In this document: piece by piece, positions 10,341 through 16,533 of the stretch
Position numbering within the stretch: the stretch's first letter is position 1
Layout: each line of letters begins with the position of its first letter
From: Bacillota bacterium
GTDB lineage: Bacteria; Chloroflexota; Dormibacteria; Dormibacterales; Dormibacteraceae
DNA: 37,202 nt
Assembly: GCA_021323605.1 (NCBI GenBank)
Contig: JAJPKS010000317.1
Span: 1 to 37,202, forward strand
Direction: 5' to 3'
Translations under genes and position numbers: made by a program
The notes under the pieces: generated by a model
Seen by the model: the letters and a program-made list of their open reading frames with translations, nothing else
Database searches by the model: none
Told to the model about the DNA's origin: nothing

Positions 10341-11648
10341 TCAGGGCCGGCCCCAGATCGGGTTGGTGAGCGCGATCGGCGGCCAGCGCCGTCCCGGTTC
10401 CCAGAGCTCCCCCCGCACGAAGCCGTGCTCGGCCAGGTCGAGCTCGGCGTCGGGCTCCACCTCGCCCAGGGCGGTCACCAGCCTCGTCCCCGCCGGGCAG
10501 CGCACGCGGACCCTCCCTCCCGGCGGCACCGTGTCGCCGATCTCCCAGCGGCGTCCGTCGCGCTCCGCCACCAGGTGCGGGGGAGGGACGCCCGGAGCCA
10601 CGATCACCACCCGGCCCATCCTCAACCCCTCCACGATCCCTTCGACGGTCAGGGAGTCGGCCAGGACCCAGACGGTGGGCGAGGCCAGCGGGCGTCCCGG
10701 CCGGCCGCAGTGGTGGTCACTGCCGCCCAGCCCCACCACCCGACGGCCGGCGCGCAGCAGCCCCTGCCAGGCGGCGAGCGTCTCCAGGTTGCGCTCGCCG
10801 GAGGGGCCGTGCCACACCTCCAGGGCGTCCAGGGGCAGGTCGTAGCCCGGGGTCCACGACATCCCGGGGCTGACCGGATGGCTGGCGGAGAGGACGCAGC
10901 CCCGGGTCCGGGCCTCGTCGATCACGGCCCGCAGCTCGGCGTCGGTCTGCCAGCGGAAGTCCACCAGCCGGTCCAGGCCCCAGGCGTTCATGTGCCCCCG
11001 GGTGGTCGTCACCTCCTCGCCGGGCACGAGCAGGACCCGATCCGAGCAGGCGCGCAGGTGGGGCAGGTGGCTGGTGGTGTTGTGGTCGGTGACGGCGAGG
11101 AAGTCCAGGCCCGCCCGGGCCGCCTCCGCCGCCAGCTCGGCGAGGCTGCCGGGTGCGTCGGAGTGGTGGGTGTGGGCGTGCAGGTCGCCGACGTACCAGC
11201 CCCGGCCCCGGTCCGGTGGTCCCGGCCGCGGAGGGCCGGGCAGGGGGTGCGGCGGTTCGCCGGCCTCCTCCAGCGCGTCCACCTGGACCTCCACCTCGAC
11301 CCCCTTCGGGGGCACCCGGCTGAGGCCCAGCAGCACCTGCCAGGTGCCGGGGGCGAGCGGCCCGGGCAGATAGCCGGGCGTGGCCCCCCGGGTCGTGATC
11401 ACGGCCCGGGTGCGAGCGCTGCCACTCCATCCCCTGAAGCCGGGGAAGCGGGGGAAGGCGCTGCCCCGGGGGTCGATCAGGCCGAGGTCGATGACGCTGG
11501 CCGCGCCCGGCCGTCCCTGGCCCTCGTAGCCGTAGCCGAGCTCGATCCGCGAGGTGCCGGGCGGCACCTCGAAGGGGACGGTCACGAAGGCCGAGCGCTC
11601 GCGGTCGGCGGGGGTCAGGAGAATGCGCCGGCGCAGGCTGGCCCGCAC
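10341..11648 (-). CDS. PHP-domain metal-dependent hydrolase (CehA/McbA-like)
   Basis: 'GWYVGDLHAHTHHSDAPGSLAELAAEAARAGLDFLAVTDHNTTSH', 'GLGGSDHHCGRPGRPL'; N-terminal beta-rich region. Start assigned to GTG 11648 by judgement. Confidence 0.85.
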   Translation of the reverse strand: MRASLRRRILLTPADRERSAFVTVPFEVPPGTSRIELGYGYEGQGRPGAASVIDLGLIDPRGSAFPRFPGFRGWSGSARTRAVITTRGATPGYLPGPLAPGTWQVLLGLSRVPPKGVEVEVQVDALEEAGEPPHPLPGPPRPGPPDRGRGWYVGDLHAHTHHSDAPGSLAELAAEAARAGLDFLAVTDHNTTSHLPHLRACSDRVLLVPGEEVTTTRGHMNAWGLDRLVDFRWQTDAELRAVIDEARTRGCVLSASHPVSPGMSWTPGYDLPLDALEVWHGPSGERNLETLAAWQGLLRAGRRVVGLGGSDHHCGRPGRPLASPTVWVLADSLTVEGIVEGLRMGRVVIVAPGVPPPHLVAERDGRRWEIGDTVPPGGRVRVRCPAGTRLVTALGEVEPDAELDLAEHGFVRGELWEPGRRWPPIALTNPIWGRP

Positions 11649-11859
11649 GACCCTGGCTTCTCGTGCTCGATGGTCACGAATACAGCGTCGGCCATCCTGG
11701 CGCGGTCCGGCAAGTGGTGGCACCGCGGCCGGATGGACGCGGCCGGCCGCCCCGATCGGGGGCCCGGCTTGAGGGATGATCGAGGAGGGCCGGGCGATGT
11801 CCGGCCGCGGAACCAGCGGCCGTTGCCGCCGAGATCCGGCCCACGCAGGAGGACAACCG

Positions 11860-13233
11860 ATGGCGATCGTTTCCATCAATCCGGCGACGGAAGAGGTGCT
11901 CGCCCGTTTCGAGGAGCACACCTGGGAGGACGTGGACCGCGCCCTCGATCGGGCCTGGGCGGCACGCGCTACCTGGCGGGAGACGCCGGTGTCGGCCCGG
12001 GCCGCGCGCCTGGCCGAGGTCGCCGCCTATCTGCGGCGGGAGCGGGAGAGGCTGGCGTCGATGCTCACCGCGGAGATGGGCAAGCCCATCGTGGAGGCCG
12101 AGGCGGAGGTCGAGAAGTGCGCCTGGACGGCGGAGTGGTTCGCCGAGCACGCCGAGGCCCTGCTGCGGGCCCGGCCGGTGAGCAGCAACGCCACCGAGAG
12201 CTACGTTCGCCTTCAGCCCCTGGGGGTGGTGCTGGCGGTCATGCCCTGGAACTTCCCGCTCTGGCAGGTCATGCGGGCGGCGCTGCCGGCGCTGGTCGGG
12301 GGCAACGTCATGGTCCTCAAGCACGCCTCCAACGTCCCCCAGGCGGCCCTGGCCGCCGAGGAGGTCTTCCGCCGGGCCGGCGTTCCCGAGGGGGTCTTCC
12401 AGACCCTGCTGGTGGGCAGCGCGATGGTGGAGCGCATCATCCGCGACCGCCGCGTCGCCGGGGTGACGCTGACCGGGAGCGACCTGGCCGGCTCCCGGGT
12501 GGCGGCCGTGGCCGGCCAGGCGCTGAAGAAGACGGTCCTGGAGCTGGGCGGCTCGGATCCCTTCATCGTGCTCGAGGACGCGGACGTGGCCGCCGCCGCC
12601 CAGGTGGCCTGTCGGGCCCGTAACCAGAACAACGGGCAGAGCTGCATCGCGGCCAAGCGCTTCATCGTGGCGGAGGCGGTTGCCGACGAGTTCGAGCGCC
12701 GCTTCACCGAGCTGGTCGGGGCGCTCAAGGTGGGCGACCCGATGGAGCGGGACACCAACATCGGCCCGCTGGCCCGCGGGGACCTGGTCACGGAGCTGGA
12801 CCGCCAGGTGCGGGAGTCGCTGAGGCTGGGGGCGCGGGTGGCGGTCGGTGGGGAGGCCATCCCGGGTCGGGGCTACTACTACCGCCCCACCGTCCTCACC
12901 GCGGTCAGCCCTGAGATGCCCGTCTTCCGCGAGGAGACGTTCGGCCCGGTGGCGGCGCTGATCCGGGTGAAGGACGAGGAGGAAGCGGTCGCCGTGGCCA
13001 ACGACAGCGATTTCGGCCTCGGTTCCGCCGTCTGGACGGGGGACGTCGAGCGGGGCAAGCGGCTGGCCGAGCGCATCGAGGCGGGCATGGTCTTCGTCAA
13101 CGGGATGGTTGCGTCCGACGCCCGCCTTCCCTTCGGGGGGGTGAAGCGGTCAGGTTACGGGCGCGAGCTCTCCGACTACGGCATCCTCGAGTTCCAGAAC
13201 GTGCAGACGGTCTGGGTGGGGCCGGCGCGCTGA
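11860..13233 (+). CDS. NAD(P)-dependent aldehyde dehydrogenase (succinate-semialdehyde dehydrogenase-like)
   Basis: MAIVSINPATEEVLARFEEHTW; 'VMPWNFPLWQVMRAALPALVGGNVMVLKHA', 'LELGGSDPFIVLEDAD', 'NNGQSCIAAKRF' (Cys), 'EETFGPVAAL'. Confidence 0.95.
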   Translation: MAIVSINPATEEVLARFEEHTWEDVDRALDRAWAARATWRETPVSARAARLAEVAAYLRRERERLASMLTAEMGKPIVEAEAEVEKCAWTAEWFAEHAEALLRARPVSSNATESYVRLQPLGVVLAVMPWNFPLWQVMRAALPALVGGNVMVLKHASNVPQAALAAEEVFRRAGVPEGVFQTLLVGSAMVERIIRDRRVAGVTLTGSDLAGSRVAAVAGQALKKTVLELGGSDPFIVLEDADVAAAAQVACRARNQNNGQSCIAAKRFIVAEAVADEFERRFTELVGALKVGDPMERDTNIGPLARGDLVTELDRQVRESLRLGARVAVGGEAIPGRGYYYRPTVLTAVSPEMPVFREETFGPVAALIRVKDEEEAVAVANDSDFGLGSAVWTGDVERGKRLAERIEAGMVFVNGMVASDARLPFGGVKRSGYGRELSDYGILEFQNVQTVWVGPAR

Positions 13234-13250: not shown

Positions 13251-14039
13251 TCAACCCGGCAGCCGGCCGTCGAGCCAGCGCGGGTCGCAGTCGAGGTGCC
13301 GGACCAGCCGCACCACGCCCTCCAGGGCCAGCGCCCCGGCGTAGCCCGGCCCCGCGTCGACGGGGTGGAAGGACCAGCCGGCCGGCTCCTGGTCGCCTCC
13401 GCTTGCAGGGGGCCAGGCCGGCCGGCGCCGGTCCCCGGCCGACGGCACCCGACCCCGGGCCCGCTGGTAGGCGCCCCGGCGGGCCCGGTCTTCGAGCACC
13501 GTCCTGGTACCGGGGTCCGGCGGGGGACGCCGTGGGCCGGCACGGCTCGCCTCGAGCCCGAGGGTGCTCTCGGGGATGGGTTCGACGCCCACCCCGACCT
13601 CCCGGCCCTCCGCGACCGCCATCAGCGCCACCGGCCCGGCCAGGGCCACGTTGAACCGGACGTCGATCGCCGGTTCGGCCAGCGCCGGTTTGCCGTTGGC
13701 CTGGACCACGAACCGGAGCCCGCCGGGCGGCGCCCCCAGGTAGCGTCCCAGGAGCAGCCGCAGCCAGCCTCTGGTGGCGACGAACCGATCCCGGTCCCAC
13801 TGGAAGCGGAGGGTGAGGGCCAGGGCGCGCTCCTCGGCCGGGAGCACCTCCCGAAGCCGGGCCAGGCAGGGCTGGCCCAGGTCCAGGGGCGCCCGCCAGA
13901 GGTGAACCTCCTCGCGGACCAGGCACGGCCAGGTCCGAACCATCCTCCCGGCGACGTCCGCCTGCGCGTCGGGCATCCCGATGACCCCACCGCCTCCCAT
14001 CGGATGGCACAAGGCTACCGCGATCCAGGGCCTGCTCAC
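13251..14039 (-). CDS. 4'-phosphopantetheinyl transferase (Sfp) family-like protein, degenerate active site
   Basis: 'VHLWRAPLDLGQPCLARLREVLPAEERALALTLRFQWDRDRFVATRGWLRLLLGRYLG', 'FNVALAGPVALMAVAEGREVGVGVEPIPE', 'WSFHPVDAGPGYAGALALEG' follow the Sfp-type architecture. Exact start uncertain. Confidence 0.7.
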   Translation of the reverse strand: MSRPWIAVALCHPMGGGGVIGMPDAQADVAGRMVRTWPCLVREEVHLWRAPLDLGQPCLARLREVLPAEERALALTLRFQWDRDRFVATRGWLRLLLGRYLGAPPGGLRFVVQANGKPALAEPAIDVRFNVALAGPVALMAVAEGREVGVGVEPIPESTLGLEASRAGPRRPPPDPGTRTVLEDRARRGAYQRARGRVPSAGDRRRPAWPPASGGDQEPAGWSFHPVDAGPGYAGALALEGVVRLVRHLDCDPRWLDGRLPG

Positions 14040-14112
14040 CGCGTCCCGTGACGGCCCGGCAGACCCGCCGGGCGATCGGTTGGGAGGGGGCTCCCGGGGC
14101 CGGCGTGCGGGC

Positions 14113-16533
14113 TCAGCCTTCCGCCGTCCCGTCGATGCCGAGCACGATGGCGGTGGCCTGGGCGCGTGAACGCGCCCGCAGCTTCTTGAGGATGCTGGCC
14201 ACGTGCTTGTTGACGGTGTTGGGGCTGATGGTGAGCCGCAGCGCGATGGCCCGGTTCGAGAGGCCGGTCATCAGCAGCCCCAGCACCTCCCATTCGCGCG
14301 GGGAGAGCCCGGCGGCCCGGGAGCGCTCCGAGGCCCAGGCCGGGGGCGCCGGCGCCTCCCCCGTCCCTGACGGCCGGGACCCGGAGCCGTCGAGCGCGTA
14401 GTCGATCGCCCCCTCGACGCTCAGCTCGCGGCCGCGGGCCTCGGCTGCCTCGGCCGCCGGGCCGGGCAACGCCCGGCGGCAGCGAGCCAGGATCTCCTCG
14501 ATCCGGTACCACTCGGGGTCGGGGCGGGCGCCCATGCGGGCCCGGAGGCGCCCGGCGGCAGCGCCCAGGACCAGAGCGCGCTCCGGCTCCGAGCGCGCCG
14601 CCGCCAGTCGCGCGAACCCGCCCAGCCGCCGGGCGACGGCGCCCGGGTCCAGGTGGCGCAGGATCCCGATGCTCACCCCCAGGCAGGAGCCAGCCGTCTC
14701 GAGATCCCCGGTCGCGATCGCCAGGTCGGCGATGAGGCCGACGGCGGCGGCCAGACCGTGCTGGTCGTCCAGCTCGCGGGCCAGCTCCACGCTCTCCTCG
14801 AGCCGGGCGCGGGCGGTGGCGTGGTCCCCCGTCATCAGCGCCGCCAGCCCCAGGCCGCACAGGGCACGCTGGATCCCCGGGCCGTCGCCCAGCTCGCGGT
14901 GGAGGGCGAGGCCGGCCTCGATCCGTGACCTCCCTCCGGCGCGATCGCCCATCCGGAGGAGCACCGTGCCCAGGCCGCACAGGGCACGGCCCTCCGCCCG
15001 GCGATCCCCCAGCCGTCGGGCTGCGTCCCGGGCCTGGCCCAGGAACGACCAGGCCGCCGCCAGGTCGCCCTGCCGGGCGGCGATGCGGCCGGCGCCGTAC
15101 CAGGCCCGGCCCCGAGCCCCGAGGTCGGCGACCTCGGAGGCCGCCAGCGCCCGCTCCAGCCAGTGGCGGCCCTCGACCAGCGTCCCGGTCGCCTGCCAGA
15201 ACCAGGCCAGTGCCCCGGCCGTCCGCAGGGCCAGCTCGGGGCGGGAGCGAAGGCCCCAGGCCAGCGCCGCGCGAAGGTTGGGCCGCTCCAGGGTCAGACG
15301 TCGGATCCATTCCGACCGGGCGGGGTGGTCCCGGCCCTCGTCGCCGGCCTCGGCCAGGAGGGCGTAGTGGGCGGCGTGGCGAGCCCGGATGCGCTCCCCC
15401 TCCCCGAGCGCGGCCAGCTTCTGGGCCGCGTAGCAGCGGATGGTCTCGGCCAGGCCGTAGCGCAGCTCGCCGGCGATGGTCTCGGCCTGGATCAGGGACT
15501 TCTCGACGAGGCGAGCCAGGACGTCGATGATCCGGCCGGCCGACCCCGGGTTGCCGCAGACGGCGTGGACGGCGGCCAGGTCGGGTGGAGCGGCGAAGAC
15601 CGAGAGCCGGTTGAGCAGCTCCCGCTCGCGCGGCGTGAGCGGGTCGTAGCTCCAGTCGATCGACGCGCGCAGGGTCCGCTGGCGCGGCGGCAGGTGGCGG
15701 GACCCGGTCGCGAGCAGGTCCGGCATCTCGTGGATGCGCGCCGCCAGCTGCTCCGGGGCGAGGGTGGTCAGGCGGGCGGCCGCCAGCTCGATGGCGAGCG
15801 GGTTCCCCCCCACCGCCTCGCAGATGGTGGCCACGGCCGCGGCGTTGGTCGCGTCGAGCTGGAACGACGGTCGATGGGCACGGGCCCGGTCGGTGAAGAG
15901 GTGGACGGCGTCGTAGTCGCGCAGCTGCTTCGGGTCGGTGGCCGCCGCCGGCGTCGGCGTGGGGAGCGGCCCCAGCCTCCAGACCACCTCCCCGGGAACG
16001 CCGAGCGGCTCGCGGCTGCTGACCAGCAGCCGGACGCCGGGGAAGGAGCGGAGGATGGAGAGGGCCGACCGGCCGCAGATCCAGAGCACGCGTTCGCAGC
16101 CGTCCAGCACCATCAGCAGGCTCGTTCCCTCCGCCGGCTGGATCCCGGGGTGGACTCGGAGGAGGTTGGACACGCCCAGGGCGGCGCTCAGCATCCGCAG
16201 CGCTCGCCACGGGTCCGTGACCTCGCCCAGCTCGACCAGGCGGACTCCGTCATCGCGGCGCCGGTGGACCGAGCGCCGGGCCACGGCCAGCGCCAGGCGC
16301 GTCTTGCCGCAGCCGGGCGGCCCGCAGATCGTGACCAACCGGTGCGCTCGCAGCGCGCGCGACACGTCCGCCAGTTCCTCTCGGCGACCGATGAAGCTCG
16401 TGAGTTGACCGGGAAGGCACCTCCCGACGCGGACGGCCGGGTCCAGCACCCCGATCCTCGAGGTCGCTCCTTCGTCCGCCGTCGGCGCGTTCTCCGAGAT
16501 GGGTTCCCCTCGTCGCACGCCCCGTCCGGGCAC
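14113..16533 (-). CDS. LuxR-family regulator with N-terminal ATPase and TPR-like region (LAL/AfsR-like)
   Basis: Walker A 'VTICGPPGCGKTRLALAVARR'; repeated helical middle; C-terminal HTH 'GLSPREWEVLGLLMTGLSNRAIALRLTISPNTVNKHVASILKKLRARSRAQATAIV'. Confidence 0.93.
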   Translation of the reverse strand: MPGRGVRRGEPISENAPTADEGATSRIGVLDPAVRVGRCLPGQLTSFIGRREELADVSRALRAHRLVTICGPPGCGKTRLALAVARRSVHRRRDDGVRLVELGEVTDPWRALRMLSAALGVSNLLRVHPGIQPAEGTSLLMVLDGCERVLWICGRSALSILRSFPGVRLLVSSREPLGVPGEVVWRLGPLPTPTPAAATDPKQLRDYDAVHLFTDRARAHRPSFQLDATNAAAVATICEAVGGNPLAIELAAARLTTLAPEQLAARIHEMPDLLATGSRHLPPRQRTLRASIDWSYDPLTPRERELLNRLSVFAAPPDLAAVHAVCGNPGSAGRIIDVLARLVEKSLIQAETIAGELRYGLAETIRCYAAQKLAALGEGERIRARHAAHYALLAEAGDEGRDHPARSEWIRRLTLERPNLRAALAWGLRSRPELALRTAGALAWFWQATGTLVEGRHWLERALAASEVADLGARGRAWYGAGRIAARQGDLAAAWSFLGQARDAARRLGDRRAEGRALCGLGTVLLRMGDRAGGRSRIEAGLALHRELGDGPGIQRALCGLGLAALMTGDHATARARLEESVELARELDDQHGLAAAVGLIADLAIATGDLETAGSCLGVSIGILRHLDPGAVARRLGGFARLAAARSEPERALVLGAAAGRLRARMGARPDPEWYRIEEILARCRRALPGPAAEAAEARGRELSVEGAIDYALDGSGSRPSGTGEAPAPPAWASERSRAAGLSPREWEVLGLLMTGLSNRAIALRLTISPNTVNKHVASILKKLRARSRAQATAIVLGIDGTAEG

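Follow-up and report, generated by a model that had tools for sequence, protein, structure and literature searches.

A phosphopantetheinyl transferase homolog with an eroded catalytic lobe, probably retained as a pseudoenzyme

The window, a stretch of 37,202 nucleotides that spans an entire contig of a draft genome (4.35 Mb, 494 contigs, 89% complete), encodes on its minus strand a protein that, on sequence comparison and modelling, is a homolog of the HetI/Sfp-type (group II) phosphopantetheinyl transferases (PPTases) over both lobes. Its catalytic lobe lacks the equivalents of Sfp His90, Asp107, Trp147 and Glu151. Its only close relative is an ortholog at the syntenic position in G001, the only further genome of the genus. 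The gene probably encodes a lineage-specific pseudoenzyme, which is derived from a HetI/Sfp-type PPTase and retained in a non-catalytic role. The initial annotation had left the choice between a pseudoenzyme and an early pseudogene; the comparisons below favour the former over neutral decay, because the frames of both orthologs are unbroken beside a wrecked LuxR-type gene and the erosion is limited to the catalytic lobe. The gene and its diagnostic positions are as follows.

13251..13943, minus strand: putative pseudo-PPTase gene, ATG start, 230 aa (evidence: HetI model and AlphaFold model)
13653..13910, minus strand: retained N-terminal lobe, residues 12-97 (EVHLW...VRF), from identity and conserved columns
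13638..13646, minus strand: SHS position (Sfp 89-91), reading ALA; the His90 equivalent is Leu101
13587..13589, minus strand: equivalent of Sfp Asp107 (essential Mg ligand), Gly119
13581..13583, minus strand: equivalent of Sfp Glu109 (dispensable Mg ligand), Glu121, kept
13485..13487, minus strand: equivalent of Sfp Trp147, Arg153 (CGG); also Arg (CGG) in the G001 ortholog
13473..13475, minus strand: equivalent of Sfp Glu151 (essential Mg ligand), Gly157 (GGC); Ala (GCC) in the G001 ortholog
13461..13463, minus strand: equivalent of Sfp Lys155, Arg161; Lys in the G001 ortholog

The translation of the minus-strand ORF 13251-14039 contains FNVALAG, VGVGVE (with the Gly codon at 13587-13589) and RARRGAYQRARG, exactly as first quoted. 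The ORF is present and open as described, but it probably does not begin at GTG 14039: PPTase homology opens at 'EVHLWRAPLD', near ATG 13943, which therefore is probably the likelier start (230 aa). The G001 ortholog can be aligned, in its start region, to the fragment MVRTWPCLVRE. The intactness of the ORF had been part of the original argument; the frame is indeed open, but this means little by itself, because the DNA is GC-rich and the antisense frame is open for 251 aa as well. That antisense frame (13296-14051, plus strand, within the span 13251-14051) has a counterpart in G001, and both are probably by-products of GC-rich codons.

The HetI PPTase model (NCBIfam NF042922) matches residues 8-123 with an E-value of 2.2e-21 and ends there, covering the N-lobe part. 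In Pfam, the best match of the window protein is AASDHPPT_N, below cutoff, and the ACPS domain is absent, whereas the intact homologs match ACPS clearly. AlphaFold2 (AF2) predicted a two-lobe fold with a mean pLDDT of 87 and a pTM of 0.84 from a 21-sequence alignment, and the G001 ortholog was modelled with a mean pLDDT of 90; intact enzymes make up most of the input alignment, which may therefore force the fold on the models. Residues 131-140 and 171-182 of the window protein are poorly alignable and of low confidence in the model. A Foldseek search with the window model gave Sfp in complex with CoA and a carrier protein (PDB 4MRT) as the best match, with an E-value of 7.5e-11 and a TM score of 0.68. 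The Sfp-like fold proposed initially is thus borne out by both the family model and the structural match, and both the window protein and its G001 ortholog are predicted to have kept the two lobes.

Compared to the HetI-like Sfp-type PPTases (NF042922; Sfp, PDB 1QR0 and 4MRT), the window protein shares the two-lobe fold, the N-lobe sequence, the GKP motif, the core strand with its Gly and the second Mg-site Glu, and the order of elements; the retained portion comprises the N-lobe and the core strands. However, besides the four catalytic residues, it lacks the FF(S/A)xxE segment together with the following helix-loop, its NCBIfam match ends at residue 123, and Pfam finds no ACPS domain.

PPTases are regarded as enzymes that depend on Mg and whose ligands do not vary. 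When the window protein is aligned to 20 homologs, FNVALAG, VGVGVE and RARRGAYQRARG fall at SHS90, D107 and WxxKE151 of Sfp, respectively. The metal triad Asp-Glu-Glu reads Gly-Glu-Gly in the window protein and Asp-Glu-Ala in the G001 ortholog. The former thus has Gly119 and Gly157 in place of the Asp-Xxx-Glu ligands (Sfp D107 and E151), and reads RARRGAYQR where group II PPTases have the P3 motif (F/W)(S/T/A)xKE(S/A)xxK (PMC9769936). The ortholog lacks His90, Trp147 and Glu151, and keeps Asp107 (D121), Glu109 (E123) and Lys155 (K166). According to Wang et al., activity requires the first and third Mg ligands but not the second: SchPPT and Hppt were inactive when either of these two was changed to Ala, at the third ligand by SchPPT E151A and Hppt E155A (PMC4103896). 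Since the Ala mutants at the equivalent Asp and Glu sites are inactive, both orthologs are predicted from their sequences to be catalytically dead. The group II PPTases with two Mg residues (human AASDHPPT type, Asp-Xxx-Glu), to which the best, subthreshold Pfam match points, dispense with the second ligand only, whereas the window protein misses the first and third, and the G001 ortholog the third.

The motifs GxDx(E/Q) and Wxx-E(A/S)xxK are kept in all 51 other homologous loci that were counted, 47 of which are long enough for column analysis. The loss of the SHS His, on which the original reading had relied in part, is real in that Leu occupies the His90 position, but this His is variable among otherwise intact homologs: 3 of the 51 loci, all PPTases of the same class, have Gln (L037), Ser (L041) or Tyr (L042) instead, so its loss alone is not diagnostic. 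All 24 conserved N-lobe columns are kept in the window protein and 22 in the G001 ortholog. By contrast, 15 of the 33 conserved columns of the catalytic region are lost in the window protein (p = 5e-5 against 0/24 in the N-lobe). Seven of the 33 are lost in both orthologs (Sfp H90, I118, F123, F143, W147, E151 and I154), eight in the window protein alone, D107 among them, and one in G001 alone; in G001 by itself, the catalytic region has not lost significantly more columns than the N-lobe (p = 0.17). Identity to the intact homologs follows the same division. In the N-lobe, it is 0.41 for the window protein and 0.37 for the G001 ortholog, compared to 0.40 among the intact enzymes; in the catalytic region, the values are 0.25 and 0.335, compared to 0.45. 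The loss of key catalytic sites noted at the outset was thus confirmed, and the only close ortholog has some of the same losses.

Overall identity between the window protein and the G001 ortholog is about 42%, with 56% for the N-lobe but 23% for the catalytic region. The two form a clade (support 99/94) beside intact enzymes of the same class. No third degenerate member was found among the loci examined, which came from all 110 genomes of the class, 400 genomes of the phylum and a GTDB contig scan. More distant homologs (27-42% identity) keep the catalytic motifs and G001 shares part of the losses, so that the loss of motifs is specific to the genus rather than to one genome. The window protein shares seven of the eight losses that G001 shows at conserved catalytic columns (hypergeometric p = 0.009), and Trp147 was replaced by Arg through the same codon, CGG, in both. 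This overlap suggests that activity, together with Trp147, Glu151 and His90, was already gone in the common ancestor of the two species; part of the overlap could also come from two separate losses under a shared tolerance to change.

The gene order of G001 is as in the window, with a PHP-like gene (minus strand), an aldehyde dehydrogenase gene (plus), the PPTase homolog (minus) and a LuxR-type gene (minus). The window genes concerned are listed here.

10341..11921, minus strand: PHP-like gene, 61% identical to its syntenic G001 counterpart, which marks the conserved block
11776..13233, plus strand: convergent aldehyde dehydrogenase gene, about 71% identical to its syntenic G001 counterpart; constraint control
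14113..16533, minus strand: LuxR/GerE regulator gene with ATPase and TPR regions (Pfam), intact in the window, upstream of the PPTase homolog on the same strand

Over about 400 aligned codons, the G001 ortholog of the LuxR-type gene (L014:4650-6160, minus strand) carries seven frameshifts and three stops, and most of its DNA-binding domain is gone; it served as a decay control for the PPTase homolog. The truncated HTH start of this pseudogene now runs in frame into the PPTase homolog. A conserved pairing of LuxR and PPTase genes was rejected, as the LuxR-type matches of the sister genomes lie on contigs other than those of the intact PPTase homologs.

The PPTase homologs of the window and G001 have no frameshift and no stop in about 215 codons of a frameshift-aware alignment. 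At the decay rate of the LuxR gene, the probability of such an undisturbed frame is about 0.005, a figure that depends on the relative ages of the two losses. Between the window and G001, the differences at codon positions 1/2/3 amount to 0.39/0.18/0.49 in the N-lobe, compared to 0.38/0.42/0.59 in the broken LuxR gene and 0.22/0.16/0.42 in the aldehyde dehydrogenase gene; the contrast of position 2 with position 3 in the N-lobe has p = 1e-6. Under a codon model, omega of the N-lobe differs significantly from 1 (p about 1e-16), with synonymous sites saturated and the omega value itself unusable. Near this saturation, the dN/dS estimates (NG86 about 0.37; GY94 0.012) are unreliable, and dN/dS as a number was discarded. 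The signs of selection after the loss, an unbroken frame and a constrained N-lobe, come from two orthologs with saturated dS, and some of the constraint between the two species may be older than inactivations that happened separately. A search for compensating frameshifts that mask an intact C-lobe, in which three intact homologs and G001 were aligned to the window DNA in a frameshift-aware manner, found none.

As the best explanation, the shared ancestor would have lost Trp147, Glu151 and His90, and with them activity, before the two species separated, and selection would then have kept the protein. Its role may be exerted through binding, without transfer chemistry, most likely via the N-lobe to a partner protein or a CoA-type ligand, a proposal that is speculative. 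In Sfp, the FF segment faces the carrier protein. That this segment is lost along with the Mg site and His90 speaks against a simple decoy for carrier proteins that uses the known interface. The Pfam-annotated genes of the window include no carrier protein, PKS or NRPS, so a function drawn from the neighbours was rejected and no binding partner was identified among them.

The main competitor, a decaying pseudogene, is possible but distinctly less probable. It supposes that an accessory PPTase lost its role and drifts, with few stops arising in GC-rich DNA and too little time for indels. The catalytic region of the window gene is scrambled, with small in-frame length changes relative to G001 and a local GC2 that reaches 0.78 against a usual value of about 0.5, and the poorly alignable, low-confidence residues 131-140 and 171-182 are what decay predicts. 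In addition, the death of the adjacent LuxR gene in G001 implies that the block is not essential, and other PPTases in the window genome would make an accessory one dispensable. However, neither PPTase frame is disrupted, the N-lobe is clearly short of position-2 changes, and the erosion is uneven between the lobes, with no conserved N-lobe column lost in the window protein. Frameshifts, stops and uniform relaxation, as looked for in a pseudogene, were not found; a lobe contrast of this kind, strong in the window and not significant in G001 alone, is not expected from neutral drift of the whole gene. Pseudoenzymes in general keep the fold while the catalytic residues are gone, and the window gene resembles them in this and in its conserved frame.

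A more specific form of retention, in which the genus keeps the protein as a dedicated non-catalytic regulator or decoy and carrier-protein activation is controlled through its binding to carrier proteins, CoA or the genome's active PPTases, appears improbable. Still more doubtful is an active, unusual PPTase with a rearranged metal site, an idea that applies to G001 especially: its ortholog keeps D121, E123 and K166 in a confident predicted fold, and a search of that genome found no PptT- or Sfp-type enzyme besides this predicted-dead ortholog. Against it, the Ala at the third Mg ligand is the very substitution that inactivates SchPPT and Hppt, Asp-Xxx-Glu was present in all 556 aligned group II PPTases then known (PMC4103896), Trp147 and His90 are gone too, and the window protein has also lost the first ligand. 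An assembly or sequencing artefact that scrambled the C-lobe of an intact gene might be suspected in a very GC-rich region of a 494-contig draft, but it is highly unlikely, as the independent genome G001 has overlapping losses at the same locus, which excludes a single-genome sequencing error, and intact homologs align to the window DNA without any frameshift.

The PPTase family is known, and the open-access literature yielded no account of a member that is inactive yet apparently retained: searches there for inactive or pseudoenzyme PPTases gave nothing useful, and no open-access paper was found with both 'phosphopantetheinyl transferase' and 'pseudoenzyme'. If confirmed, the window protein would offer a natural test of what the PPTase fold does once its chemistry is gone, and would caution against automatic PPTase annotation, which would be in error here; if the gene is decaying instead, it would be a clean case of lobe-by-lobe loss beside a neighbouring pseudogene.

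A check of the same genome for a second PPTase, as initially proposed, was positive. Two further PPTases with catalytic motifs are encoded, a PptT/EntD-type enzyme (L001), whose short contig may be a contaminant from binning, and an AcpS (L002). The window genome also encodes carrier-protein domains, two of them in very long open frames; G001 has an AcpS and two carrier-protein domains. In the window genome, AcpS is fused with an ADP-dependent NAD(P)H-hydrate dehydratase in one 415-aa ORF (L002:1471-2718, G000:C46), and AcpS matches inside long open frames occur in G001 and several relatives as well.
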